From: a virus
Length of the DNA: 64,000 nucleotides
Direction: 5' to 3' (one strand)
IMG/VR virus record: IMGVR_UViG_3300027906_000002
Span: 1 to 64,000 of that record
The notes under the pieces are model-generated. The model ran no database searches. It worked only from the letters and a program-made list of their open reading frames with translations, and was not told the origin of the DNA. The first letter of the stretch is position 1; every line of letters starts with the position of its first letter. Positions 18,645-63,422 of this stretch are shown here, piece after piece. The position numbers and the translations under genes were made by a program.

Positions 18645-19562
18645 ATGTCATTTGCTTCACTAAAGAAAGCTGCCTCTGCTGGTAGCAGTCTTAGTAAACT
18701 GACACAAGAGATAGAAAAACTAAACCAACCTCAGAGTGGTGGAGGTGCTGATGAGCGTCTCTGGAAACCTGAGTTGGATAAATCAGGAAACGGTTATGCC
18801 GTTATCCGATTCCTTCCTGCTCCAGATGGAGAGGACATGCCTTGGGCAAAGATCTGGTCACACTCCTTCAAAGGACCTGGTGGTCAGTGGTACATCGAGA
18901 ACTCTCTTACTACTATTGGTAAGGATGATCCTGTCGGTGAGATGAACAGGGAACTATGGAACAGTGGTCGTGAGTCTGACAAGGCAACTGCTAGAACACA
19001 GAAGAGAAAACTCTCTTACTATTCTAACATCTATGTTGTAAGTGACCCTGCACATCCAGAGAACGAAGGAAGAGTCTTCTTATACCGCTACGGTAAGAAG
19101 ATATTTGATAAGCTAGTAGAAGCAATGCAACCTGCATTTGCTGACGAGACTCCACTAGATCCATTTAATCTATGGAAAGGTGCAGACTTCAAGGTAAAGA
19201 TTCGTAAGGTTGATGGGTACTGGAACTATGATAAGTCAGAGTTCGCTGCACCTGCTACTCTAGGTAAACTAGATGATACAGAACTAGAAGAGATTTGGAA
19301 GAAGTCCTACTCACTCGCTGAGTTTGAAGCACCTAAGAACTTTAAGTCTTATGAGCAACTCAAGTCAAGATTGAATCTAGTATTAGGTAAGTCTGCACCT
19401 CGTACAGCACCTGTTGTTGACGAGAGTGAAGAGGAAGTAGTACCTGCTAATTGGGGTAAAGAAGTATCAGATTTCAGAGAGAAAGTAGGGGCAACAGCAC
19501 CTGCTTCAGCAACTGAAGGTGATACACTCTCATACTTCCAGTCATTAGCAGAGGAGGACTGA
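18645..19562 (+). CDS. 32: Single-stranded DNA-binding protein gp32
   Basis: 305 residues from ATG 18645 (MSFASLKKAAS). It coats ssDNA during replication, recombination and repair. The T4-type core is clear: LWKPELDKSGNGYAVIRFLP, then RKLSYYSNIYVVSDPAHPENEGRVFLYRYGKKIFDK. Unlike T4 gp32, it has no cysteines, so the zinc finger is lost. The C-terminal third is acidic and ends SLAEED, the usual protein-interaction tail. Confidence 0.94.
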   Translation: MSFASLKKAASAGSSLSKLTQEIEKLNQPQSGGGADERLWKPELDKSGNGYAVIRFLPAPDGEDMPWAKIWSHSFKGPGGQWYIENSLTTIGKDDPVGEMNRELWNSGRESDKATARTQKRKLSYYSNIYVVSDPAHPENEGRVFLYRYGKKIFDKLVEAMQPAFADETPLDPFNLWKGADFKVKIRKVDGYWNYDKSEFAAPATLGKLDDTELEEIWKKSYSLAEFEAPKNFKSYEQLKSRLNLVLGKSAPRTAPVVDESEEEVVPANWGKEVSDFREKVGATAPASATEGDTLSYFQSLAEED

Positions 19563-19568
19563 TTATAA

Positions 19569-19612
19569 ACTGGCACAAGGAGGACTTAATATCCTCTTTG
19601 TGCTGTTATAAT
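19569..19612 (+). promoter_or_regulatory. Promoter with half of the early dyad
   Basis: ACTGGCACA (19569-19577), then 29 nt, then TATAAT (19607-19612), the same geometry as the early promoters at 53964-63056; the left half-site is degenerate. A 12-bp hairpin (GCACAAGGAGGA at 19573-19584 with TCCTCTTTGTGC at 19592-19603) lies between. Confidence 0.6.
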
Positions 19613-39204: not shown

Positions 39205-39725
39205 AAGGAGAGTTATTATGTTTGATAAAGACATATTGTTATCGTAAAGGTGAGTATACTCTTTCTTCTGGTAAGAAAAGTGAGCATTATGTTAATTGCA
39301 AACCAGTTACTTTATCTGGAGTAGGACTTAATATAATCAGTCAGTTATTTACACAGGAATTATCTCCTTCTACACTAGCAGTAGGTGGTTTAACTCTTGG
39401 TGCTGATCCATTAGTGGCAGGTGTTGCTATGACTGCTGGTGTTGATGGTTTAATTGTTCGTAAAGAACCAAAGGGTCATGGTACTCAAGCATGGATTGAA
39501 GGACCAGCATTACCTTTAAATACGGAGATAACCGTACTAGAGGATGTAATTACAACAGGTGGGTCTGCTATTAAAGCAGTAGAGAAACTTCGTGATGCTG
39601 GATATAAAGTAAATGAGATTATTACTATTGTTGATAGGCAAGAAGATGGTGAAGCAGATATTAAAATGAAAGAAGCTAACATAACACTTAAGAGTCTATT
39701 CACTCTTGCTGAGGTTGCTAAATAG
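39201..39725 (+). CDS. pyrE: Orotate phosphoribosyltransferase
   Basis: 174 residues. PyrE joins orotate to PRPP in UMP synthesis. Seen: FTQ-type N-terminal region, LSSGKKSEHYVNCKP, LIVRKEPKGHGT (flexible catalytic loop with Lys/His), and the PRPP motif TVLEDVITTGGSA at 111-123. Near full length for the family. Adds pyrimidine synthesis to the purN/thyX/nrdAB set. Confidence 0.92.
   Translation: MKGELLCLIKTYCYRKGEYTLSSGKKSEHYVNCKPVTLSGVGLNIISQLFTQELSPSTLAVGGLTLGADPLVAGVAMTAGVDGLIVRKEPKGHGTQAWIEGPALPLNTEITVLEDVITTGGSAIKAVEKLRDAGYKVNEIITIVDRQEDGEADIKMKEANITLKSLFTLAEVAK
39718..39724 (+). promoter_or_regulatory. Late-type promoter box
   Basis: CTAAATA inside the pyrE end, 27 nt before the structural gene at 39752; likely start of the fibre operon. 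Confidence 0.55.
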
Positions 39726-39751: not shown

Positions 39752-41071
39752 GTGGCAACTAAGAAGATATCACAGTTAGAGACAATATCTGACTCCAATT
39801 TGTCGGGGGAAGCAATTCTTCCTGTTGTTGTTTCTGATCCTTTGATTCCTAATAGGAAAGCGAAGGTTAATCAGTTAATGAAAGGAGTTAGTCAAGGAAC
39901 AAAAACTGAACCTGGTTTATGTTTTGACCTTGATAGAGACACTGGATTGTATCAAAATGCATACAATCAAATAGGTGTATCGTTTGGTGATGGTGGATTA
40001 TATGCCACTCGTCTTGATAATGGTAATGATAGTACTTCGTTATATGTTACAGCAATTGATGATGTAGCACAAAATACAGATATAGTTTTTGCTCCAAAAG
40101 GTACAGGTGCGGTTAAGGTAACAGGTCAATTTCTAATTGAAGATTCCTCTTTTGTTTTAGAGGATTCTCAGGGTCCAAAGGTAAGATTTGAAGTAGGTAA
40201 TGTTGGTACTGGTACTAGTACCAGAATCATGACACTTCCTCAAATTACTCAAGGTAATGGTACTACAATTGTAGGTGACAATACTACTCAAACGTTAACA
40301 AATAAAACTCTTCTTATTGATGAGGATAATTTTGTTATTGTTGATGGTACTGAAGAAGCAATTTTTCAAATCAACTGGCCAACAACGTCAGGAACTAGGA
40401 GATCTTACTTCTTACCTGATGCAGGTGCAGTAACAACTTCTGGAGAACCTACTGCAACATCTTCTACTCTACTTGATACTAAGACGGAACAGACAACTTT
40501 AAATAAGACTTTAGTCACTCCGAAAATGGCTGCTAATGCAGATGACGGAACAAGTTGGGTTCAATGGAATACTTCAGCATTAAGTGCTAATAGAACTATT
40601 TCATGTCCAGACCAAAGTTTAATTTTAGTTGGTACAGAATCAACTCAAACTCTTACTAACAAGACTGTTAGTGGTTTGATTGTTGCAGATACTACAGATC
40701 CTACTAAGAGATTCTTATTTGATATATCAAATAGTAACTCTCTTACTATAGAATCTATTCAGTTTCCACCTACGGCAAACCTAAATAATGATGGTGATAC
40801 TAATACAATAGTAACAGAGTTAGCAGGACAGGATTTAAAGAATAAAACAATTTATAATCCAGTAATTGCTCAGACAGGACTACCTGGACAAGTGACTATT
40901 TCTGTAGATAATATAACATCTACTAGAACTATTAGGTTCCCAGATGCGGATGCAACACTACTTTCTACTGAAAACGTAACTGTTGATGATGTTAACTTTG
41001 GTGCTGGTATCGGTGCTGCAAACTTAACTTCAAGAACAAGACTACAACAATTTTTCTACGCAGGATTCTAA
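39752..41071 (+). CDS. Virion structural protein, fibre-type
   Basis: 439 residues from GTG 39752 (MATKKISQLETISDSNL). Beta-rich, with repeated T-Q-T-L-T-N-K-T units (about residues 180 and 290) and DLKNKTIYNP as used in trimeric phage fibres. A late box precedes it and fibre genes follow. Exact place in the virion unknown. Confidence 0.68.
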   Translation: MATKKISQLETISDSNLSGEAILPVVVSDPLIPNRKAKVNQLMKGVSQGTKTEPGLCFDLDRDTGLYQNAYNQIGVSFGDGGLYATRLDNGNDSTSLYVTAIDDVAQNTDIVFAPKGTGAVKVTGQFLIEDSSFVLEDSQGPKVRFEVGNVGTGTSTRIMTLPQITQGNGTTIVGDNTTQTLTNKTLLIDEDNFVIVDGTEEAIFQINWPTTSGTRRSYFLPDAGAVTTSGEPTATSSTLLDTKTEQTTLNKTLVTPKMAANADDGTSWVQWNTSALSANRTISCPDQSLILVGTESTQTLTNKTVSGLIVADTTDPTKRFLFDISNSNSLTIESIQFPPTANLNNDGDTNTIVTELAGQDLKNKTIYNPVIAQTGLPGQVTISVDNITSTRTIRFPDADATLLSTENVTVDDVNFGAGIGAANLTSRTRLQQFFYAGF

Positions 41072-53777: not shown

Positions 53778-53975
53778 ATGAATATTGATTTGCCTGAATG
53801 TATATTATTAAATGATAGTGAGAAGCAACTACTAAAGGATGCTTTCTTATCATACATGAAGGAACTAGAGATAAAGACAAAGAAAGAGAAAATGTTAACT
53901 GCTGAAGCATATCAGGAGGTTAGATATCAACTTGAGGATATGATACAGAAATTACATTTAGGGTATGGCAGTTAA
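53778..53975 (+). CDS. Small helical hypothetical protein
   Basis: 65 residues, starting MNIDLPECILLNDSEK, charged helices. Its last codons and stop lie inside the early dyad at 53964-53987. Unknown. Confidence 0.5.
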   Translation: MNIDLPECILLNDSEKQLLKDAFLSYMKELEIKTKKEKMLTAEAYQEVRYQLEDMIQKLHLGYGS

Positions 53976-54022
53976 CTAAGTGGCACATGACCTCATGTCA
54001 TCACATGGGGTTCATGTATAAT
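53964..54022 (+). promoter_or_regulatory. Early promoter with dyad (copy A)
   Basis: TATGGCAGT-N10-GCACA (53964-53987), 29 nt, TATAAT (54017-54022). A hairpin (53991-53998 with 54003-54010) lies in the spacer. The predicted +1 is the ATG at 54029. Confidence 0.7.
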
Positions 54023-54028
54023 AGTATT

Positions 54029-54637
54029 ATGAAATTACAATTCCCACCTAAACTCGTTGAGGCAGTTCATTACCTCAATCAATTAACCATTCAAGTGAGT
54101 GAATCACATGAGGATGGTAGAGTTAATAGTATTGATGATGAAGATACTATTATAGATCTTCTCATTGAAAGATATGGTGATAATGTAGAAAAACCTAAAG
54201 CAAGATGTTGGTGGGATCTTAAACTATTTGGATACCCTACTAATATTAAATCATCTAAGTTTGGAAGTGCAGCAGATAATTTCTCATCTAAAGCAGCAAT
54301 ATTATATGCACTAACTGATATTCCAGAGGAGGATGTTACATGTACATCATGGAAGAGTTTTCAAACTAAACTAAAAGAGAACTCATCACAATCAACACCA
54401 AGAGATTATTATATAATTGTACTCAATAAGGTAACTGGTGTTGTATATTTACAATCACTCAAATCATTGAGTAAACTAACATCTAATGGTAATAACCTAC
54501 CATTTCAGATTAAGTGGAGAGATAATATACATCCTGTACAAAGAGACTATTTACAATCATATGATTTTCTGGTAGAATACTACAAGGAATCAGTACGCAA
54601 GAAAATTACATCACATGATGGATTTGAAGAACTGTAA
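54029..54637 (+). CDS. Putative PD-(D/E)XK restriction-endonuclease-like protein
   Basis: 202 residues from ATG 54029, which is also the predicted transcript start (leaderless). ARCWWDLKLFGYPTNIKSSKFG has D63 followed by N72-I-K74 after 10 residues, similar to the D...x-K core of type II restriction enzymes, and E38/D39/E40-rich helix EDEDT in front. 'NIKSSKFGSAADNFSSKAAILYAL' has the look of restriction nucleases that act on short sites. It overlaps a methyltransferase gene by 23 nt, the usual layout of a restriction-modification pair. No family proven. Confidence 0.5.
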   Translation: MKLQFPPKLVEAVHYLNQLTIQVSESHEDGRVNSIDDEDTIIDLLIERYGDNVEKPKARCWWDLKLFGYPTNIKSSKFGSAADNFSSKAAILYALTDIPEEDVTCTSWKSFQTKLKENSSQSTPRDYYIIVLNKVTGVVYLQSLKSLSKLTSNGNNLPFQIKWRDNIHPVQRDYLQSYDFLVEYYKESVRKKITSHDGFEEL

Positions 54638-55391
54638 ATTACACCAAGGCGATTGTTTAGAATTAATGAAGGAGATACCAGATGAGTCTATTGACTTTAT
54701 CTGTTGTGATCCACCATACGGTACTACATCTATTAAATGGGATTCAGTCCTAGATTATAATAAATTGTGGGAACAATATGGTAGGATAATTAAACCTAAA
54801 GGTATTATATGTTTGTTTGGTTCTCAACCATTTACATCTCAATTAATATGTTCTAAGATAGATTGGTTTAGGTATGAGATTATATGGAATAAGAATAAGT
54901 GTGGATCACCAGGTCTTGCAAAGAAGAGACCAATGAAAGTGCATGAGAATATATTAATATTCTATAAAAATGCTGGTGGTACATATAATCCTCAAATGAC
55001 TAAAGGAGAACCATTTAAAAGAGTGAGTAAGAACCCAGAAGGTTATGTAGGTAAGAAGAATGACCACAATTATGGTATGAAACCACGCAAAGAGTTTGAG
55101 AATAAGGGTACAAGATATCCTAAATCAATTGTTAACATCTCTAGAGATTTTAGTGCTCAACAACAGGTACATCCAACACAGAAACCAGTACCATTAATGG
55201 AGTGGTTAATTAAAACATACTCCAATGAAGGTGAAACTGTATTAGATAATTGTATGGGTTCAGGTTCAACTGGAGTAGCAGCAATTAAATTAAATAGATC
55301 TTTCATAGGTATTGACACATCACCAGAATATGTTAGAATATCTAATGAAAGAATCGAATCAATCCCACTAGATTTAACTAAAATACTATGA
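54615..55391 (+). CDS. DNA methyltransferase, class beta (N6-adenine or N4-cytosine)
   Basis: 258 residues. Motif IV DPPY at 32-35 comes before motif I DNCMGSGSTG at 211-220, the order of class-beta amino methyltransferases. HPTQKP at 186-191 and FLFGSQPF-like motif (residues 67-74) are typical of phage and R-M enzymes. Overlaps the putative nuclease upstream by 23 nt and the next gene by 4 nt. May protect the phage genome or form an R-M pair. Confidence 0.88.
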   Translation: MMDLKNCKLHQGDCLELMKEIPDESIDFICCDPPYGTTSIKWDSVLDYNKLWEQYGRIIKPKGIICLFGSQPFTSQLICSKIDWFRYEIIWNKNKCGSPGLAKKRPMKVHENILIFYKNAGGTYNPQMTKGEPFKRVSKNPEGYVGKKNDHNYGMKPRKEFENKGTRYPKSIVNISRDFSAQQQVHPTQKPVPLMEWLIKTYSNEGETVLDNCMGSGSTGVAAIKLNRSFIGIDTSPEYVRISNERIESIPLDLTKIL

Positions 55392-56581
55392 ATACAGATA
55401 TGACTGGATTACATGAAGAATTTGGTGTAGATATACCAACAGCACCAGAGATTGATCCTAACCAATGTTTCAATGAAGAGTTATTAAAGTCTTTTAAAGA
55501 TACAATAGATCAACAACCTCATTTACATGTTAATACTATACTGGGTAGTTATGCTACAGTTGTACCAGATAGTAACAATCAAATTTATCCTCAATTAATA
55601 TGGATTGATGAGATACATGATTTAGAGTCAATTAGGAATACTATAACAGGAGAAGTGAGACCAAGAGGATGGCAAATAAGAGATGGAGAAGATGTTAACG
55701 AAGATTGTGTTAATGATTATCATCAAGATATAGTTAATAAGGAATGGGTTCCTACACACATGTGTGGTTGTGTATTTGAATTGGAAGATGGGTGGTATAG
55801 TGTATCAAGTAGAGGTGTAAAACGTAAGTATGGTGTTGCTAATTTACATCATAGATTAAAAGCAGCAGCAGAAGCAGGTGAAGATTATATTATTGCATGG
55901 GTAATAAAATTTAAAGATCTTAGATTATTAGCAGAGTGGGCATGTGCTGAAGCAAATAGGAATAAGTATACTTCTAATCCTAGAAAAGATAATGATATTG
56001 TTAGAGCAATTCAAGAGCAATTAACATGGGAGTCAGAACTTAAGATTGCATTAGATAATGCTGAAGAAGATGGAGAAGAGAAAACAAAAATAATAGTTAA
56101 CAAACTTAAATTATTTCATCTTCATGGAAATACTATCAATGGTTTAGTTAGAAAGTTAGAAAGTGTCGGTGTATTTACAGGAGATAGGAGAAGAAGAAGT
56201 GCAGAAGATATTGATAAATGGTTTGAAGATAATTTACCTAGTTGGAAGAAAACAGGTCAAAATGAATATTTAAATGACCAAGGTGTAACAGTTAAAGTTG
56301 TACAAAATATGGGTAACAATCATTTTGCAACTGCTGGTTATCTTGCAGATCAGATACTTGCTGATATCCCACATATAATAATTACTTCTGATAGTTCAGG
56401 TAAAGAAAAACTTCCAACTGATGTATTACAATACAGAAAAGGACATTTAAGTGATGCTTATAAACATATTGATAAGATGGGTGAAGTAAGAGATCTACTT
56501 AGATCAGGTAAAGCACGATTAGCAACACAATATAATCTTCCTGGATTAAATAATGAAGATACATTAATCTACATTCCATAA
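55388..56581 (+). CDS. Unknown 397-residue protein of the methyltransferase operon
   Basis: ATGA overlap with the methyltransferase. 397 residues; the middle is helical and acidic, a segment THMCGCVFELEDGWYSVSSRGVKRKYGVANLHHRLKAA resembles no domain I know. C-terminal RGLDT-free region ends NEDTLIYIP. Could be a specificity, sensor or partner protein. The next early promoter begins 1 nt after its stop. Confidence 0.6.
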   Translation: MNTDMTGLHEEFGVDIPTAPEIDPNQCFNEELLKSFKDTIDQQPHLHVNTILGSYATVVPDSNNQIYPQLIWIDEIHDLESIRNTITGEVRPRGWQIRDGEDVNEDCVNDYHQDIVNKEWVPTHMCGCVFELEDGWYSVSSRGVKRKYGVANLHHRLKAAAEAGEDYIIAWVIKFKDLRLLAEWACAEANRNKYTSNPRKDNDIVRAIQEQLTWESELKIALDNAEEDGEEKTKIIVNKLKLFHLHGNTINGLVRKLESVGVFTGDRRRRSAEDIDKWFEDNLPSWKKTGQNEYLNDQGVTVKVVQNMGNNHFATAGYLADQILADIPHIIITSDSSGKEKLPTDVLQYRKGHLSDAYKHIDKMGEVRDLLRSGKARLATQYNLPGLNNEDTLIYIP

Positions 56582-56640
56582 TGTGACACCTAACATAGTG
56601 TCACAGTAAACTACCATTTCATTCTATACTATAGTATATT
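56582..56640 (+). promoter_or_regulatory. Early promoter with dyad (copy B)
   Basis: TGTGACAC (56582-56589) and GTGTCACA (56598-56605) form a perfect 8-bp inverted repeat. TATATT (56635-56640) follows after 29 nt; +1 would be the ATG at 56647. TATACT at 56625-56630 is another -10 choice. Confidence 0.65.
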
Positions 56641-56646
56641 AACAAT

Positions 56647-56847
56647 ATGAGAAAATTCTTTTCTCCCGATCAACAAATCAAGTTGATTAAAAATGCTTTG
56701 AAAAAAGCAGAACAAGGTTCCGTTCTTTATAATGATGATGAACTCATCAAATTAAAGACATCACTTAATAAATTGCGTGATGAGAAGGAACAAACTAGGA
56801 AACTACTCAACCGAGGATTTGGTTATGACAAAGAAACTAACAGTTGA
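56647..56847 (+). CDS. Small helical hypothetical protein
   Basis: 66 residues, starting MRKFFSPDQQIKLIKN; basic coiled-coil-like (ELIKLKTSLNKLRDEKEQTRKLL). No ribosome site; ATG is at the predicted +1. Overlaps the next small gene by 23 nt. Confidence 0.55.
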   Translation: MRKFFSPDQQIKLIKNALKKAEQGSVLYNDDELIKLKTSLNKLRDEKEQTRKLLNRGFGYDKETNS

Positions 56848-56953
56848 TTACGATCAAAAGTATGACAATTGTCAGGAAAATGAGGATGATTGGGTATCAT
56901 CAGTTATAGGAACTGAAGATGATGCAATCTATGACATTCTGGATCAATTATGA
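56825..56953 (+). CDS. Small acidic hypothetical protein
   Basis: 42 residues, starting MTKKLTVDYDQKYDNC; acidic, overlaps both neighbours. Unknown. Confidence 0.45.
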   Translation: MTKKLTVDYDQKYDNCQENEDDWVSSVIGTEDDAIYDILDQL

Positions 56954-57318
56954 ATACTTGGGAAGTCACATTACAACGTGAAAATGGTATCAACAAGACA
57001 GTAATTGTTGATGATTGTATGTATGAAAGTGAAGCAGAATTGCTTGCTGAATCACAATATGGACTTCCAGTTTTAAAAGTATTATATAAAGGACAATCAG
57101 ATGTTTGGGGTATGAGTAATAAAGATGGTAATGATTACATTTGGTATGATTTACCTAGACGGAGAGCAAGAGGGGGAAAAAATGTAGATATAGATGGTCT
57201 ATTTGGAGTGATGATGATTATACCTGCACTTGCCACACTTGTTATTATTATTGAGTATTGGTTACCAATACTTATTATTACATGTGGTGTAGGTGCATTT
57301 ATGTCATTCAAGAAATAG
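56950..57318 (+). CDS. Membrane protein with two C-terminal helices
   Basis: 122 residues, starting MNTWEVTLQRENGINK. The N-terminal 75 residues form a soluble beta domain (VTLQRENG.., WEVTL) with a basic RRRARGGK stretch; two hydrophobic helices (about 83-100 and 103-117) end in MSFKK. Probably inner-membrane bound. Unknown role. Confidence 0.55.
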   Translation: MNTWEVTLQRENGINKTVIVDDCMYESEAELLAESQYGLPVLKVLYKGQSDVWGMSNKDGNDYIWYDLPRRRARGGKNVDIDGLFGVMMIIPALATLVIIIEYWLPILIITCGVGAFMSFKK

Positions 57319-57364
57319 GCATTTATATTTGTTAACTTAAGGTGTTCAATTCATCACAAATGTT

Positions 57365-57371
57365 ATAAATA
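57365..57371 (+). promoter_or_regulatory. Late-type promoter box
   Basis: ATAAATA within the 141-nt gap after 57318; that gap otherwise contains only the TTG gene's ribosome site. Confidence 0.35.
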
Positions 57372-57459
57372 ATGATAGTCACCGAAAGGTACAGTTAGGA
57401 GTAACAAGATGCACTGAAACCTCATTTATTATGAGTTTAATGTATACAAGGAGGTCTAA

Positions 57460-57624
57460 TTGTCCAACAGTTTAATTTCATTCAATCAAATGGCATTTTG
57501 GAAACATGGAACAGATGATACTTCTCAAGATGAGAAGATAGATGAGTACTTTGAATGTCTAATTGATTGCGATACAAACGACCAAAATAGTTGTAGGAGG
57601 GTATGTTCAGAGTTATTAGTTTAA
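57460..57624 (+). CDS. Small protein with TTG start
   Basis: 54 residues. TTG 57460 is preceded by AAGGAGG (57448-57454) at 5 nt, the best ribosome site in this region, which favours it over the in-frame ATG at 57490. Three to four Cys (ECLIDCD, NSCRRVC) in a short acidic protein suggest a disulphide or zinc site. Function unknown. Confidence 0.55.
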   Translation: MSNSLISFNQMAFWKHGTDDTSQDEKIDEYFECLIDCDTNDQNSCRRVCSELLV

Positions 57625-57650
57625 GGGACAATTAACAACAATTAAGTTAA

Positions 57651-57676
57651 AAGAGGGTTGCAAAACCCTCTTTTTT
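57651..57676 (+). terminator. Intrinsic terminator
   Basis: AAGAGGGTT (57651-57659), GCAA loop, AACCCTCTT and Ts to 57676. Directly followed by TATAAT. Confidence 0.88.
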
Positions 57677-57680
57677 AATG

Positions 57681-57686
57681 TATAAT
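57681..57686 (+). promoter_or_regulatory. -10 box of the second methyltransferase
   Basis: TATAAT; +1 would be the A of the ATG at 57693. No early dyad is found 29-30 nt upstream (that place is taken by the terminator). Confidence 0.55.
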
Positions 57687-57692
57687 AGGTAC

Positions 57693-58661
57693 ATGAAAGA
57701 TACTATTCTATTTGGAGATTGTCGTAAGACGTTATCAGCGTTCTTACCAAATAGTGCTCGTATGTGTGTAACATCACCACCATATTACGGACTAAGAGAT
57801 TATGGTGGAGAAGATAATCAAATAGGATTAGAACAATCACCAGAAGAATATGTTAACGAGATGGTGAAAGTATTCAGAGAAGTTAGAAATATATTGACTG
57901 ATGATGGAACACTATGGTTAAACATAGGTGATAGTTATTACAACTATCGTCCTGGTAAGGGTGCTAATTACCCTAAGCAAAGTGTTAGTGAGACTAGACA
58001 AGATCTACCCACTAATAGTAACAAACGTGCTAACAAATTAGAGGGACTAAAAGAGAAGGATCTAATTGGTATTCCTTGGATGTTAGCATTTGCATTAAGA
58101 GCAGATGGATGGTACTTAAGGCAAGATATTATATGGCATAAACCTAATCCAATGCCTGAAAGTGTGCGTGATAGATGTACTAAAGCACATGAATATATCT
58201 TCTTGTTGAGTAAGAATAAGCATTACTATTATGATAATGAGAGTATAAAAGAACCTGCTAAAGATTGGGGTACTCGTGATAGATCTAAGGGGAAATATCA
58301 CAATGAAGGTACAGGTTTATCACCTCATACTGGTCTCACTAAATCATATCCAACAAAGAACAAACGTAGTGTATGGAGTATAACTAAGAGACCATATAAG
58401 GGTGCTCATTTTGCTACTTTCCCACCTGAATTAATCACACCATGTATACTTGCAGGTTCAGCACTAAATGATACTATCCTCGACCCATTTATGGGTAGTG
58501 GTACAACAGCAGCAGTGGCAAAATCATTAGGTAGGTATTACATAGGGTGTGAATTACATGAGGATTATGGTCATTTAATAGAGGAGAGAGTACGAGAATA
58601 CCATGTGACACCTGACAAAGAGGCACACAACCCACTGACAACACTGCTGAATGATGTATAA
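57693..58661 (+). CDS. DNA methyltransferase, TSPPY type
   Basis: 322 residues from ATG 57693; an ATG at 57678 falls upstream of the -10 and is unlikely. TSPPY at 27-31 (motif IV, common in N4-cytosine enzymes), GTLWLNIGDSYYN, PWMLAFALRADGWYLRQDIIWHKPNPMPES (target region), and DPFMGSGTTAAVAKSLGRYYIG (motif I) at the end: class beta order. No nuclease gene next to it, so probably an orphan phage methyltransferase for host-restriction protection. Confidence 0.88.
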   Translation: MKDTILFGDCRKTLSAFLPNSARMCVTSPPYYGLRDYGGEDNQIGLEQSPEEYVNEMVKVFREVRNILTDDGTLWLNIGDSYYNYRPGKGANYPKQSVSETRQDLPTNSNKRANKLEGLKEKDLIGIPWMLAFALRADGWYLRQDIIWHKPNPMPESVRDRCTKAHEYIFLLSKNKHYYYDNESIKEPAKDWGTRDRSKGKYHNEGTGLSPHTGLTKSYPTKNKRSVWSITKRPYKGAHFATFPPELITPCILAGSALNDTILDPFMGSGTTAAVAKSLGRYYIGCELHEDYGHLIEERVREYHVTPDKEAHNPLTTLLNDV

Positions 58662-58662
58662 T
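58604..58662 (+). promoter_or_regulatory. Early promoter with dyad (copy H), drives the ncRNA
   Basis: TGTGACACC-N10-GCACA (58604-58627) within the methyltransferase end, 29 nt, TATAAT (58657-58662). Predicted +1 at 58669. Confidence 0.7.
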
Positions 58663-58668
58663 AGATAT

Positions 58669-58831
58669 GTTGAGAGATCACTAGGTTTCCAACTACTAAG
58701 ACATCAGGCATCCGTAAGACTTTCAAGGTTGCGTTCAATCGCATTTAAGTCGAACTTAAGCAAACATAAGTCCTGTGAATCTTAGACATGATGTTAGAGT
58801 AATTTACTTACCCTAGTCTCTCAACTTTTTT
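58669..58831 (+). ncRNA. Candidate structured small RNA
   Basis: The predicted 5' end GUUGAGAG (58669-58676) pairs perfectly with CUCUCAAC (58818-58825), which is followed by six Us. After a short bulge ACUAGG (58680-58685) pairs with CCUAGU (58812-58817). Inside, GACUU...AAGUC encloses a hairpin UGCG-UUCAAU-CGCA, and ACAUCA pairs with UGAUGU. No ORF of note. An RNA of about 157-163 nt with its own early promoter and terminator. I do not recognise its class. Confidence 0.6.
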
Positions 58832-58846
58832 CTTTGATCTAACTAC

Positions 58847-59137
58847 ATGCCAACTGCAACACCTCGTAAGACTTCAACTGCAACACCACGCAAGAGAAGA
58901 ACACGCAAGGCAACTGCAAAGAAAGTAACACCAACTCCACTAAATACAACAGTCGAAACTAAACTCAATGGAGATCCTATTGTGACTGAAACTGTTAACA
59001 ATGAAGTGAAAGTTGATGTGAAAAGAAGAAACCTAACCGAGTTAAATGGTCTTGAGTTAGTAATACTTCCTCTAGTATATCTTGAGGGATTTGTTAAACT
59101 AATCCTAAAAGAGACTGGAGTATTAGAAACAGTGTGA
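58847..59137 (+). CDS. Basic Thr/Pro/Lys-rich protein, histone-H1-like N-terminus
   Basis: 96 residues. N-terminal TATPRKTSTATPRKRRTRKATAKK repeats TPRK units like H1-type DNA-binding tails; the C-terminal half is a neutral domain with hydrophobic LVILPLVYLEGFVKLIL. Starts 16 nt after the small-RNA terminator, so expression may need read-through. May coat DNA or bind host nucleoid. Confidence 0.6.
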   Translation: MPTATPRKTSTATPRKRRTRKATAKKVTPTPLNTTVETKLNGDPIVTETVNNEVKVDVKRRNLTELNGLELVILPLVYLEGFVKLILKETGVLETV

Positions 59138-59192
59138 CAGTTAAACAACCTACACACTGAGACCCCATAAGGGGTCTTTTTTTGTGTATAAT
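59133..59192 (+). promoter_or_regulatory. Early promoter with dyad (copy C)
   Basis: TGTGACAGT-N10-ACACA (59133-59156), including the TGA stop of the gene before; 30 nt; TATAAT (59187-59192). Confidence 0.7.
59160..59182 (+). terminator. Intrinsic terminator inside the early promoter spacer
   Basis: AGACCCC-ATAA-GGGGTCT followed by a T-run, lying between the dyad and the -10 of copy C. Confidence 0.85.
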
Positions 59193-59216
59193 GATTATGT
59201 CCTTTGAAATGATTCT

Positions 59217-60467
59217 TTGAAAGACGCATTGAGACCACACCAGCAGAGAGCATATGATAAGATGACCACTGAGAATTCAGGTCAGATTATTATACCTACT
59301 GGTGGTGGCAAAACATTCATTATGATAGCAGATTGTCATAGATTAGTAACAACAACTCCTCGTAGTCCTCAGACTATTGTTGTAGTTGCACCACGCATAT
59401 TGCTTGCTAATCAGTTATCTAACGAGTTTGAATCTGCACTTCCTGATGTTAAGATAGCACATGTACATTCTGGTGAAACTCATCATTTTAGTACAACAGA
59501 TCACAGGTTTTTAACACATTGGGGTTGCTCTAATCCTCAGTATGATAAGTTAATCTTTACCACCTATCATTCACTCCACAGAGTATTAGATAGCATGGTA
59601 AATATCAACAGAATATACTTTGATGAGGCACACAATGGCACTAGCAAAGTATTCTTTAAGCAGATAAAGAGAATCGCTGAGTTACAAATACCACGCTTCT
59701 TCTTTACTGCTACACCACGCATTTCACGCTCTAAGAATAGTATTAGTGCGGAACGTGGTATGAACAATGCGGAGATATATGGTGAAAAGTTAGAAGAAAC
59801 ATCTGCTAAGGAGTTAATAGATAGTGGCACTATCTTATACCCTAAAGTTATACCATTTGAGACCGATAGAGAGCGTACTAAACAGAACGCACATGAGGTT
59901 GATAGTGATAACTTAAAGGACATACTTAACTCCTTAACTGATAACAATCCAAAGGTACTTGTGAGTGCTCCAACAACAAGAATCATGTGGAATATGCTAT
60001 CACAAACTGATATTCAGTCATGGTTATTAGAGCATGATTATAACATCATGCACATCACATCTAAACATGGTGCTGTTATCAATGGTAAGAAAGTAGGAAG
60101 GGAAAAGTTCTTCCAAACCCTTACAGATTGGGGCAAAGATGATAACAAAAGGTTTGTAATCTTCCACTATAGTATACTATCAGAAGGCATAAATGTTCCT
60201 GGTTTGACTCATTCAATCATGCTTAGAAACTTACCTACCATTGAAATGGCACAGACAATAGGTAGAGTTATCAGGATACATGAGAAGGATAGAGTATCAA
60301 TGAAGGATGGTAAGATACCTGCTGGTCAGTATAACTTATACCATAAAAGTCATGGTCAAATTGTTGTACCTATGACTGGTAAGTATGGTCAAAGAATAGC
60401 AGATAGATTGAAATCTATTGTTTCATATATCTTTATAGAGGGTATTCCACCAAGAGCATACGTCTAG
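59217..60467 (+). CDS. Superfamily 2 DNA helicase
   Basis: 416 residues from TTG 59217. TGGGKT (motif I) at 28-33, DEAH (II) at 136-139, TAT (III) at 164-166, and TIGRVIRI (VI) near residue 346. Likely recombination or repair helicase; similar in kind to T4 UvsW. A leaderless-looking ATG at 59197 opens a 7-codon frame (MSFEMIL) whose TGA overlaps the TTG; termination-reinitiation or a -1 frameshift could give the true N-terminus. Confidence 0.87.
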   Translation: MKDALRPHQQRAYDKMTTENSGQIIIPTGGGKTFIMIADCHRLVTTTPRSPQTIVVVAPRILLANQLSNEFESALPDVKIAHVHSGETHHFSTTDHRFLTHWGCSNPQYDKLIFTTYHSLHRVLDSMVNINRIYFDEAHNGTSKVFFKQIKRIAELQIPRFFFTATPRISRSKNSISAERGMNNAEIYGEKLEETSAKELIDSGTILYPKVIPFETDRERTKQNAHEVDSDNLKDILNSLTDNNPKVLVSAPTTRIMWNMLSQTDIQSWLLEHDYNIMHITSKHGAVINGKKVGREKFFQTLTDWGKDDNKRFVIFHYSILSEGINVPGLTHSIMLRNLPTIEMAQTIGRVIRIHEKDRVSMKDGKIPAGQYNLYHKSHGQIVVPMTGKYGQRIADRLKSIVSYIFIEGIPPRAYV

Positions 60468-60525
60468 TGTGCCAGTCTGTAAACTGCACACTATTCTCCC
60501 CACTGCCTCTAAAATGACCTATAAT
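60468..60525 (+). promoter_or_regulatory. Early promoter with dyad (copy D)
   Basis: TGTGCCAGT-N9-GCACA (60468-60490) directly after the helicase stop, 29 nt, TATAAT (60520-60525). Spacer one nt shorter than in the other copies. Confidence 0.68.
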
Positions 60526-60552
60526 AACAGAGTACCAAACAAAGACACCTTT

Positions 60553-60882
60553 ATGACAGTCTCCAACCTATCTCAAACAGCACGAGTTGAAATGTGGGTT
60601 TTGGATTTGGTAGATGCACTTGAAGCAAACTACACAAGTCGTTACCCTGATTCACCTAATCCTGTAAAGTTTGAAACTAAGGTAGGTAAGAAGTACATCA
60701 AAATTATTCAAGTTGATGGAGGTGTTCATGCTTTCATTGATAAGAATACAGGTGAAGTTTATAAACCTGCATCTTGGAAATCACCAGCAAAGCACGTTAG
60801 ATATGATTTAAGGATCATTAATCAACGTCAAGAGTGTTATTCAAGAGCAGATTGGGCAGGTGGTTATCTTTACATAAGATAA
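60553..60882 (+). CDS. Hypothetical protein
   Basis: 109 residues from ATG 60553 (MTVSNLSQTARVEMWV). Earlier in-frame ATGs (60469, 60514) lie in the promoter and are unlikely. ALEANYTSRYPDSPNPVKFETKVGKKYIKIIQ, then VHAFIDKNTGEVYKPASWKSPAKHVRYDLR, a pattern I have seen in cyanophage proteins but cannot name. Alpha/beta, basic end. Confidence 0.6.
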   Translation: MTVSNLSQTARVEMWVLDLVDALEANYTSRYPDSPNPVKFETKVGKKYIKIIQVDGGVHAFIDKNTGEVYKPASWKSPAKHVRYDLRIINQRQECYSRADWAGGYLYIR

Positions 60883-60945
60883 TCAATCATTAGTCCTAAG
60901 TATGACTCTAAACTGCTTATTGTAAATTTACTTTCTCACTTTATC

Positions 60946-61047
60946 ATGTCATTTAATCCTGAAGTTGCACTATTCAATCTACTTGAAGATGCACAAACAG
61001 CAGCAGAATTACTAGCAGTAATTGATGACTACATTGCTAACAGTTAG
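60946..61047 (+). CDS. Tiny acidic hypothetical protein
   Basis: 33 residues, starting MSFNPEVALFNLLEDA; one amphipathic helix. It sits between the previous gene and a strong terminator. Tentative coding call. Confidence 0.4.
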   Translation: MSFNPEVALFNLLEDAQTAAELLAVIDDYIANS

Positions 61048-61056
61048 TAACACTTA

Positions 61057-61081
61057 GGGGGGATCATTTCCCCCCTTTTTT
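61057..61081 (+). terminator. Intrinsic terminator
   Basis: GGGGGG (61057-61062), ATCATTT loop, CCCCCC (61070-61075), six Ts. Confidence 0.9.
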
Positions 61082-61103
61082 ATCACCCATTTGTTAAATA
61101 ACT

Positions 61104-61238
61104 ATGAACACATCAATCCGTTATTGGTTCCCTGATACCAGACAGTGCAGATATTTGTACTTTAAAACATACCAACAGGCACTAGATTGTATTGAATTGT
61201 TTAAACAAATCGAGGTAAGATCGGAGGTAATTGTATGA
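61104..61238 (+). CDS. Small hypothetical protein
   Basis: 44 residues, starting MNTSIRYWFPDTRQCR, with YFKTYQQALDCIELFK. ATGA overlap with the next gene. Unknown. Confidence 0.48.
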   Translation: MNTSIRYWFPDTRQCRYLYFKTYQQALDCIELFKQIEVRSEVIV

Positions 61239-61399
61239 CTGAACCATACACAATTGAAACGAGTTGTTATACAATAGACTTTACAAATAGGAAGGCATAT
61301 GAAGATGTATTGAAGGAATGTGAGAGACTAAGTGTTAATATGGATTACTACTTCTTAGAGTTTGACACAACAGACACCGAACCAGAAGCATATATGTGA
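61235..61399 (+). CDS. Small hypothetical protein
   Basis: 54 residues, starting MTEPYTIETSCYTIDF; acidic. GGAGG ribosome site about 10 nt upstream. The TGA stop is part of dyad copy E. Unknown. Confidence 0.5.
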   Translation: MTEPYTIETSCYTIDFTNRKAYEDVLKECERLSVNMDYYFLEFDTTDTEPEAYM

Positions 61400-61454
61400 C
61401 AGTTAACTAAGTTGCACACTAAACCCCCATTTTGGGGGTTTTATCGTTTATAAT
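61395..61454 (+). promoter_or_regulatory. Early promoter with dyad (copy E)
   Basis: TGTGACAGT-N10-GCACA (61395-61418), 30 nt, TATAAT (61449-61454). ACCCCC-ATTTT-GGGGGTTTT terminator at 61423-61442 lies in the spacer. Confidence 0.72.
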
Positions 61455-61479
61455 AAGAATGTTCAAACGAATTCAACCC

Positions 61480-61599
61480 ATGAACACAAATCTTTCAAAA
61501 GAAGTGTATGAGCAGTTGTTGAACCCAACTCCAACAATTCGTTATTACTTCTTATCAAACTTAACAACCAAATCTACAACTAAGGGAGGTAAAAAGTAA
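61480..61599 (+). CDS. Small hypothetical protein
   Basis: 39 residues from ATG 61480 (MNTNLSKEVYEQLLN); an in-frame ATG at 61459 would start only 5 nt after the -10. Basic C-terminus. TAATG overlap with the next gene. Unknown. Confidence 0.45.
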   Translation: MNTNLSKEVYEQLLNPTPTIRYYFLSNLTTKSTTKGGKK

Positions 61600-61838
61600 T
61601 GAATAACTTACAAGAATTCATTGATTATGTGTGGAGTTTCTATAACCCACAATCTGACCTTTACCCTATTAAAGGTTTAACAAAGAACGACATATTAGAG
61701 GCAAGTTGGTTATACTTGCAGATGTGTTGTTATCCATCAATGCCCGAATATACTTGGGGTGATGGTGATAGTTTAGATAGAGAACATGTAAGAGATATTT
61801 TACTACAGAGTCCTCAATTTTCCTTTGGAGGTGCATGA
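61599..61838 (+). CDS. Small hypothetical protein
   Basis: 79 residues, starting MNNLQEFIDYVWSFYN; aromatic, acidic helical protein (YLQMCCYPSMPEYTWGDGDS). GGGAGG ribosome site. ATGA overlap with the zinc-ribbon gene. Confidence 0.55.
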   Translation: MNNLQEFIDYVWSFYNPQSDLYPIKGLTKNDILEASWLYLQMCCYPSMPEYTWGDGDSLDREHVRDILLQSPQFSFGGA

Positions 61839-61996
61839 CTAACATCACAAGATACACTCGTGCTGGTAAGAATGGGAAGCAAATTGCATGTCCTAAATGT
61901 GAATCAGTACGAACAGTTTATCACTTCAACTTCTCAGGATTAACATGTCCTGATTGTAAACAATCCATCACCAAATATGACTGGAGGTTAGCATGA
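61835..61996 (+). CDS. Small zinc-ribbon protein
   Basis: 53 residues with CPKC (19-22) and CPDC (38-41), 15 residues apart: a treble-clef/zinc-ribbon likely to bind one zinc. Short basic N-terminus. Probably a nucleic-acid or host RNA-polymerase binding early protein, by type; not shown. Overlaps the next gene by 4 nt. Confidence 0.6.
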   Translation: MTNITRYTRAGKNGKQIACPKCESVRTVYHFNFSGLTCPDCKQSITKYDWRLA

Positions 61997-62127
61997 AACT
62001 ATTCCTCTTAATCATCATCGGATTATTATTATATAACTCCGAAGATTCTCGTTATTTTATTAGTGACCAACTACAAAATGCGAGTGAGTTTGTAAGACCA
62101 GAACCAACAATCCAAGTGAGGTACTAA
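61993..62127 (+). CDS. Small secreted or membrane-anchored peptide
   Basis: 44 residues; N-terminal MKLFLLIIIGLLLY is a membrane anchor or signal, rest polar. Unknown. Confidence 0.48.
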   Translation: MKLFLLIIIGLLLYNSEDSRYFISDQLQNASEFVRPEPTIQVRY

Positions 62128-62128
62128 C

Positions 62129-62434
62129 ATGAACTACAGACAATCTGCAAATCCAAATGCAACAAATAGTGAGTTAGATGCTAAGAAGATAGTATATCCT
62201 AGCATCCCTAATTGTGAGTTGCCAGTATCACTAACTGAAGAACAAATCTCCACGATTCTTTATATCATGGAGGGATATATTGTAAATTCAGATGATACTA
62301 ATGATGAGCAATTTAATAATGATGTTGATGACATCTTTGAGAAGTTAGAGACCGCAGTTGATATACACTATGCGGAATTAGACGCACTATGTAACACTAA
62401 CCCTGAACCATTCATTCCTACTTTCCATGACTAA
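62129..62434 (+). CDS. Acidic hypothetical protein
   Basis: 101 residues, starting MNYRQSANPNATNSEL; acidic helical (DDTNDEQFNNDVDDIFEKLE). Overlaps the next gene by 8 nt. Not recognised. Confidence 0.55.
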   Translation: MNYRQSANPNATNSELDAKKIVYPSIPNCELPVSLTEEQISTILYIMEGYIVNSDDTNDEQFNNDVDDIFEKLETAVDIHYAELDALCNTNPEPFIPTFHD

Positions 62435-62684
62435 TTCATCCCCTAAAGTATCATTCACACCAGATCAAAAGAGAGAACTAATTGAACAGTATGCTGAACT
62501 CTTAGTTGATAACATGGATCCTAAAACTCTTGCACAATATGTGTATGAAGACCTCGTATATACATACGAACAATCATCATCACAAGAGTTAAAAGAGCAG
62601 ATAGATGATTATGACCCTGAGTTATTTGATGAGTTACTTGATAACGTAACCGCACCAAGTGTGAGTCTAAATGTAATTAAATAA
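62427..62684 (+). CDS. Acidic hypothetical protein
   Basis: 85 residues, starting MTNSSPKVSFTPDQKR; helical, very acidic (ELKEQIDDYDPELFDELL). Unknown early protein. Confidence 0.55.
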   Translation: MTNSSPKVSFTPDQKRELIEQYAELLVDNMDPKTLAQYVYEDLVYTYEQSSSQELKEQIDDYDPELFDELLDNVTAPSVSLNVIK

Positions 62685-62698
62685 GAGTCAAGACATAG

Positions 62699-62758
62699 TG
62701 TGTCAGTTTACATACTGGCACACATTTTTCCCATATGGGGTGGTTGTGTGTGTATAAT
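62699..62758 (+). promoter_or_regulatory. Early promoter with dyad (copy F)
   Basis: TGTGTCAGT (62699-62707), 6 nt, ACTGGCACA (62714-62722): the most symmetric copy. Then 30 nt and TATAAT (62753-62758). Confidence 0.75.
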
Positions 62759-62782
62759 AGGTATATACACGAAAGAACTCTT

Positions 62783-62992
62783 ATGTCAAAAACTCAAACC
62801 ATCATCAACAGAATTCTAGAAGTTGAGAACTTCCAGAATGTCGCTTGCGTATGTGCTGACTGGTCTGAGTTTGTACAAGAACTAAGCGAGTGGGGTGTTT
62901 ATGGGTGTGCTAAGATCGATTTCTTAGATGCTGATCTAGACATCCCAACACTTGATAAGTTCATGGTAACCGAAAACGGTTACATCAGATAA
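62783..62992 (+). CDS. Small hypothetical protein
   Basis: 69 residues from ATG 62783 (MSKTQTIINRILEVEN); an in-frame ATG at 62735 lies in the promoter. Acidic alpha/beta with VACVCADWSEFVQ. Unknown. Confidence 0.55.
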   Translation: MSKTQTIINRILEVENFQNVACVCADWSEFVQELSEWGVYGCAKIDFLDADLDIPTLDKFMVTENGYIR

Positions 62993-62996
62993 ACCC

Positions 62997-63056
62997 TGTG
63001 GCAGTCTAGGAAGTGGCACAAGGTCGCTTGATTTATGCCCCAATCTGTGCTATATT
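62997..63056 (+). promoter_or_regulatory. Early promoter with dyad (copy G)
   Basis: TGTGGCAGT-N10-GCACA (62997-63020), 30 nt, TATATT (63051-63056). Starts 4 nt after the stop of the previous gene. Confidence 0.68.
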
Positions 63057-63119: not shown

Positions 63120-63422
63120 ATGTCAAAATCTTTATTTCAACAATCCATCAACCTATGTGAAGACTACTTAGGTTTTGAGTGGTCACAAGGTGTTCGCACC
63201 TCTATCTTCGATTCTTACAGACGTGAGAACGATTTAGATCCTAGTCTTTCAATCTACCATTACGGTGGAGACCGTTTCGAGGTTCGTTCTATGAACTATT
63301 CTGATTCAACTGGTTGCATTGTAGGCGATCAGGTCGATCTTGGTTCTTTTGATAACATCTACGATGCACAAGATTGTGCCGAAGATTATCTAAAAGATCT
63401 ACTATTAAACCTCGGTGTTTAA
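63120..63422 (+). CDS. Hypothetical protein
   Basis: 100 residues, starting MSKSLFQQSINLCEDY; alpha/beta, acidic, with YHYGGDRFEVRSM. Leader of about 55 nt from copy G with no clear ribosome site. Codon use here is richer in C-ending codons than neighbours. Unknown. Confidence 0.58.
   Translation: MSKSLFQQSINLCEDYLGFEWSQGVRTSIFDSYRRENDLDPSLSIYHYGGDRFEVRSMNYSDSTGCIVGDQVDLGSFDNIYDAQDCAEDYLKDLLLNLGV

Follow-up and report, generated by a model that had tools for sequence, protein, structure and literature searches.

Transcription from the window

What does an inverted repeat do when it stands again and again at a constant distance upstream of a -10 hexamer in a cyanophage genome? The question is raised by a window of 64,000 nucleotides, bases 1-64000 of the 179,402-bp IMG/VR virus record IMGVR_UViG_3300027906_000002, which belongs to a T4-like cyanophage. 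Eight such dyads are present, all within a block of very small genes, methylases and a helicase, and the closest isolate across this region is Prochlorococcus phage P-SSM7 (Kyanoviridae). We consider it about 70% probable, judging from sequence comparisons, that each dyad is part of a promoter module for early or delayed-early genes of the Kyanoviridae, in which a dimeric activator bound to a 24-bp palindrome near -54 replaces the -35 box.

The dyads had been listed in a first-pass annotation. All eight were found at the coordinates given there, on the + strand, and the gaps between dyad and hexamer (29, 29, 29, 30, 29, 30, 30 and 30 nt) are exact. They are as follows.

53964-53987 (+): dyad 1, TATGGCAGTTAACTAAGTGGCACA, matrix score 24.6; -10 TATAAT at 54017-54022 (+), 29 nt past the dyad; gene start at 54029
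56582-56605 (+): dyad 2, TGTGACACCTAACATAGTGTCACA; -10 TATATT at 56635-56640 (+), 29 nt past the dyad; gene 56647-56847
58604-58627 (+): dyad 3, TGTGACACCTGACAAAGAGGCACA; -10 TATAAT at 58657-58662 (+), 29 nt past the dyad; putative non-coding RNA 58668-58832, then gene 58847-59137
59133-59156 (+): dyad 4, TGTGACAGTTAAACAACCTACACA, with a P-SSM7 counterpart upstream of the same helicase gene; -10 TATAAT at 59187-59192 (+), 30 nt past the dyad; helicase gene downstream
60468-60490 (+): dyad 5, 23-bp variant, TGTGCCAGTCTGTAAACTGCACA; -10 TATAAT at 60520-60525 (+), 29 nt past the dyad; gene 60553-60882 (DUF7717)
61395-61418 (+): dyad 6, TGTGACAGTTAACTAAGTTGCACA; -10 TATAAT at 61449-61454 (+), 30 nt past the dyad; small gene 61480-61599
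62699-62722 (+): dyad 7, TGTGTCAGTTTACATACTGGCACA, top match to the symmetric pattern; -10 TATAAT at 62753-62758 (+), 30 nt past the dyad; gene 62783-62992
62997-63020 (+): dyad 8, TGTGGCAGTCTAGGAAGTGGCACA; -10 TATATT at 63051-63056 (+), 30 nt past the dyad; gene 63120-63422

The consensus first written for these sites, TGTGnCAGT-N9/10-GCACA, is too loose as it stands, although all eight were recovered by a matrix derived from other phages. The left half is TGTGNCAGT in only five of the eight; the copy at 53964 starts with TATG, and those at 56582 and 58604 have TGTGACACC. Right ends deviate at 56582 (TCACA) and 59133 (TACACA), and the copy at 60468, with 23 bp, is 1 bp shorter than the others. 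With the matrix from other phages, nine sites in the window score at least 10, each followed by a -10 at 28-31 nt, compared with means of 0.52 dyads and 0.017 dyads with a -10 in dinucleotide-shuffled windows (n=60). The dyad with its -10 at a fixed distance is a real feature of the window.

Consensus and spacing

A 24-bp palindromic consensus, TGTGMCASTT-N4-AASTGKCACA, was obtained from 535 unique IMG/VR copies and bears out the earlier description of the element as an inverted repeat. The promoter-proximal half is somewhat more conserved than the distal half, TATAAT follows 29 or 30 nt downstream of the dyad, the first ATG lies a median of 25 nt after the -10, and no -35 was seen, as had been reported for the window. 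The IMG/VR loci were picked by pattern, which biases the consensus somewhat to the seed but affects neither the spacing test nor the isolates. Among non-seed dyads, 150 occurrences of TATAAT lie at 29 nt and 63 at 30 nt, with about one at each other offset, and the exact pattern with a gap of 28-31 nt was found in at least 119 IMG/VR stretches, versus 4 for a control gap of 38-41 nt. The claimed lock between dyad and hexamer therefore extends across the IMG/VR loci. Such a strict gap, with no -35, implies a stereospecific contact with the polymerase. If the hexamer is taken as -12 to -7, the dyad would reach from about -65 to -42, with its centre near -54. The genes downstream of the copies fall into 256 unrelated clusters of small genes, showing that the control module is conserved and not its cargo.

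Distribution among phages

In P-SSM7 the arrangement recurs at about a dozen sites, and the orthologous helicase promoter there keeps the dyad, the terminator-like hairpin and the -10. When up to three mismatches were allowed, the eleven Kyanoviridae isolates searched had 15 dyads (P-SSM2), 12 (P-RSM4), 10 (P-HM1 and P-SSM7), 9 (S-PM2), 7 (Syn1), 6 (S-SSM5), 5 (Syn9), 4 (P-SSM4), 3 (S-CAM8) and 2 (S-SM1), with 0-2 in reversed controls. A refined pattern found 19 in the freshwater phage S-CRM01 and 6 in P-TIM40. The element is carried by marine and freshwater Kyanoviridae. The promoter-proximal half-site followed by a -10 (ASTGKCACA-N28-31-TATAAT) gave 81 matches in 20 phage records (3.7 Mb), five of these records having been selected for carrying the element, and none in the control. 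The first-pass annotation had staked its claim on enrichment of the dyad-spacer-TATAAT arrangement in related phages, and this enrichment is decisively present in both isolates and IMG/VR. The refined pattern is absent from P-SSP7, PSS2, S-CBS2, S-CBS3 and T4, Ma-LMM01 has no dyad, and the cyanosiphoviruses likewise lack the element.

S-TIM5, a T4-like phage outside the Kyanoviridae, has five ASTGGCCC[AT] sites (163789, 165059, 165345, 168438 and 170903), each exactly 30 nt from a -10. The layout is kept and the half-site is changed, with CCCA in place of CACA. The recorded host of S-TIM5 is WH8102, which is also that of S-SSM5, a phage with the CACA form. A half-site ending in CCAC is used additionally, in the same register, in P-SSM4, P-SSM7 and P-HM1. 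The S-TIM5 promoters also share an extra GCCC[TC]GT-like stretch right after the right half-site.

Host genomes

Is the dyad read by a protein of the host? A picocyanobacterial transcription factor present at infection could give immediate expression, and the genes in question are expected to be transcribed right upon infection. The motif is common to phages of several hosts, and borrowing of host PhoB sites by phages is documented (PMC10976474). The host genomes, however, speak against this explanation. Among 27 genomes confirmed as picocyanobacterial by psbA, none had a full dyad with up to two mismatches. In 121 Cyanobiaceae genomes the half-site with a -10 gave 2 matches versus 3 for the control, which is background, and a host promoter class was rejected on this ground; a host regulon was rejected as well, because 84,980 genomes of bacteria and archaea yielded perfect dyads in 11 stretches, about the chance level. 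The fixed-spacing scan that had been suggested for phages and hosts alike was thus positive in related cyanophages and at background in host genomes. Moreover, the dyad is missing from other phage families of these cyanobacteria (P-SSP7, PSS2, S-CBS2 and S-CBS3 searched), and S-TIM5 and S-SSM5 differ in their half-sites although both are recorded on WH8102. Hijacking of a host factor is unlikely in our judgement, while still deserving serious attention.

Larger cyanobacteria have some matches to the dyad, and the contexts inspected were mixed (coding sequence, a CRISPR spacer, unrelated genes). The CRISPR spacer, ATCTAACTGTGACACTTTGAGAATTGGCACTCGAT, is 35 nt long, belongs to a cyanobacterial array of 65 repeats (L169, G105:C1:3601000-3606000) and holds the dyad at 2214. 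It looks as if it had been raised against a phage early promoter; an exact target was not found in IMG/VR. One of the 11 stretches with a perfect dyad is from the record Flavobacteriales bacterium TMED113, which has many dyads at the cyanophage spacing (G008 C26, C52, C54 and C70; L136), on contigs that look like cyanophage contamination.

Activator site, repressor operator or RNA stem

A phage protein at the dyad might also shut the promoters off, by blocking contacts of the alpha-CTD or of an UP-element. The dyad is located where the alpha-CTD would bind, and its half-sites are independent in the 535 copies. Repressors typically bind palindromes whose half-sites are independent. Overlap with the -35 or -10 would be more usual for such an operator, however, and the missing -35 and the fixed 29/30-nt register suit activation; repression is accordingly an improbable reading.

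The same 535 copies bear on whether the dyad acts as RNA. Complementary combinations are in excess at one of the 12 mirrored pairs (positions 5/20, z 3.5); some of the other pairs have slight deficits, and mismatched combinations such as A/G and G/G are common. Mirrored positions therefore vary almost independently, as in a protein operator with two half-sites and not as in an RNA hairpin, and a stem-loop formed by the dyad was rejected because 11 of the 12 pairs lack such an excess. Hairpins do occur between the dyad and the -10. The spacer folds below -6 kcal/mol in 38% of cases versus 11% of shuffles, and only a minority of spacers contain a stable hairpin. Two terminator-like hairpins of this kind are in the window.

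59157-59186 (+): spacer of dyad 4, hairpin GACCCCATAAGGGGTC-T7
61419-61448 (+): spacer of dyad 6, hairpin CCCCCATTTTGGGGG-TTTT

The excess over chance suggests that transcription of upstream operons often ends between the operator and the -10. Terminator-like hairpins resembling those of PeSL (promoter-stem-loop) cassettes also lie exactly between operator and -10 in many IMG/VR copies. PeSL promoter-terminator cassettes are attributed in PMC4503421 to T4-like phages (Comeau et al. 2014, as cited there), and the likeness lies in an early promoter and a stem-loop between small shuffling genes; in the dyad promoters, the palindrome is additional and separate. That the dyad is no protein site at all, and instead an RNA hairpin, a terminator or a PeSL-like recombination hot-spot, would fit the folding of the spacers. 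It is very improbable given the weak co-variation, and the hairpins sit apart from the dyad as a separate feature. Chance or base composition can be dismissed as virtually impossible in view of the shuffled windows and the IMG/VR control gap.

Proposed mechanism and candidate binders

In the activator-dependent promoter that we prefer, a sequence-specific dimer would bind the 24-bp palindromic operator and, held in a constant helical register ahead of a good sigma70 -10, would recruit the host RNA polymerase, presumably through the alpha-CTD or sigma region 4. A single protein would in this way switch on many dispersed small operons in concert. We infer both activation and early timing. A phage-encoded binder would be delivered by the virion or produced from an activator-independent promoter; if the binder had to be synthesized beforehand the promoters would be delayed-early, and with a binder in the virion or in the host they could be immediate-early.

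The binder is likelier to be encoded by the phage than to be a host regulator, since the element is lacking in the hosts and in other phage families of these hosts, and since two WH8102 phages appear to read different half-sites. At slightly less than even odds, we propose that Kyanoviridae encode or package a dimeric activator from a family not yet described, which would serve -35-less promoters through the 24-bp palindrome at -54, and that protein and site have diverged as a pair by lineage (CACA versus CCCA) with the register fixed.

Several results weigh against this model. P-TIM68 has weak copies only and Syn9 few strict ones, which means that not every early gene requires the element. 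Neither a helix-turn-helix nor a zinc-activator domain was found in ten conserved small phage proteins, and Ogr_Delta (PF04606) is absent from 16 phages, with the control detected in E. coli. The binder may also be a host protein that has few sites of its own, or weak ones. As candidates, T4-GC 43, 49, 321, 147, 139, 313, 4, 152, 61 and 176 were rejected because they have no DNA-binding activator domain; furthermore, T4-GC 49 occurs in S-CBS2 too, which is without the dyad, and the C-x-H-x3-C-x-H of T4-GC 43 is not invariant.

Relation to known promoters

In 2016, Doron et al. (ISME J) reportedly described a novel regulatory element of early genes in Syn9 and P-TIM40, one that is plentiful in T4-like cyanophages and conserved among them. 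The dyad is present in both named phages, and for this reason we do not call it new. The two are probably the same element, being alike in phage group and, presumably, in gene class; they were compared by the phages that carry them. The first-pass annotation, which knew of no named cyanophage element of this kind, was probably wrong in this respect. The palindrome model, the absence from hosts and the S-TIM5 variant are results of the present analysis.

The closest mechanistic analogue is the P2 Ogr/Delta promoter class. Late promoters of P2 and P4 are activated by Ogr/Delta and have a TGT-N12-ACA dyad near -55, a sigma70 -10 and no good -35. In these too a dyad at about -55 stands in for the -35 and the host polymerase transcribes, whereas the cyanophage dyad has longer half-sites and another spacing and precedes apparently early rather than late genes. 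The absence of PF04606 from the 16 phages kept us from assigning the dyad to this class.

T4 early promoters have a -35 and a -10, and MotA boxes are near -30. T4 is of the same phage type and also relies on host polymerase and dispersed early promoters, but is itself without the dyad. Among bacterial regulators, NtcA recognizes GTA-N8-TAC near -41.5, Pho boxes are direct repeats, and CRP recognizes TGTGA-N6-TCACA, whereas the dyad is palindromic over 24 bp and has its centre near -54. A CRP/FNR-type site is contradicted by the spacing in the 535-site consensus, and an NtcA site by both consensus and position, in agreement with the distinction drawn earlier for the window. Operators of the NtcA and PhoB type do precede -10 boxes in cyanophage genomes (PMC3037559, PMC10976474), and a 2010 comparison of cyanophage genomes sought sigma70, T4-late, Pho and NtcA promoters (PMC3037559). 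The genes alt, mod, motA and asiA are missing from cyanomyoviruses, whose early and middle control is named in a review as still to be worked out (PMC2984593). When the motif was searched for in the literature as a sequence string, none of the matches listed was a cyanophage paper containing it.

The Kyanoviridae rank with the most abundant viruses of cyanobacteria, and at issue is how they take over host transcription without Alt, Mod, MotA and AsiA (PMC2984593). A precise operator in a fixed register is a ready bait for the regulator, and offers a means of predicting which genes of a metagenomic contig serve takeover and which of its operons are early. The half-site change in S-TIM5 provides a natural specificity pair for testing candidate binders.

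Other copies and genomic setting

The dyad block is flanked by tail-fibre genes and, in P-SSM7, by a baseplate gene. Its Syn9 counterpart is gp60-gp93, where the Syn9 dyads cluster among small unknown genes. Matrix and half-site scans added copies beyond the eight, namely one in the window with a half-site only, and dyads at 65855 and 152633, outside the window in the same genome.

19554-19612 (+): half-site copy after gp32, right half ACTGGCACA at 19569-19577, TATAAT at 19607-19612

Comparable half-site promoters were found after gp32, near position 2000, in P-SSM7, P-SSM4, P-RSM4 and S-SSM5.

A putative structured RNA

A structured RNA may be transcribed from dyad 3 (predicted structure, z -2.9), and copies were found elsewhere.

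58668-58832 (+): putative structured early RNA with a closing stem and a T-run, downstream of dyad 3
L208:3186-3345 (P-SSM4), L076:9417-9515 and L260-L298: further copies

Its near-invariant core, TAARACTTTCAAGGTTGCG-(6 or ~66-78 nt)-CGCATTTAARTCGAACTTAAG, is enclosed by an outer stem and is present in 40 IMG/VR stretches and in P-SSM4. The pairing of the outer stem is kept by two-sided changes at eight pairs, and in 27 of 42 copies a dyad promoter lies just upstream of the start of the RNA. No Rfam family matches it. These features suggest a putative, unannotated family of structured RNAs transcribed from dyad promoters. At the same locus P-SSM7 has a different RNA (L008:39712-39810, z -2.1), with a long 5'/3' closing stem, GGAAAACAAA...TTTGTTTTCC, located between the dyad at 39650 and the gene at 39830.

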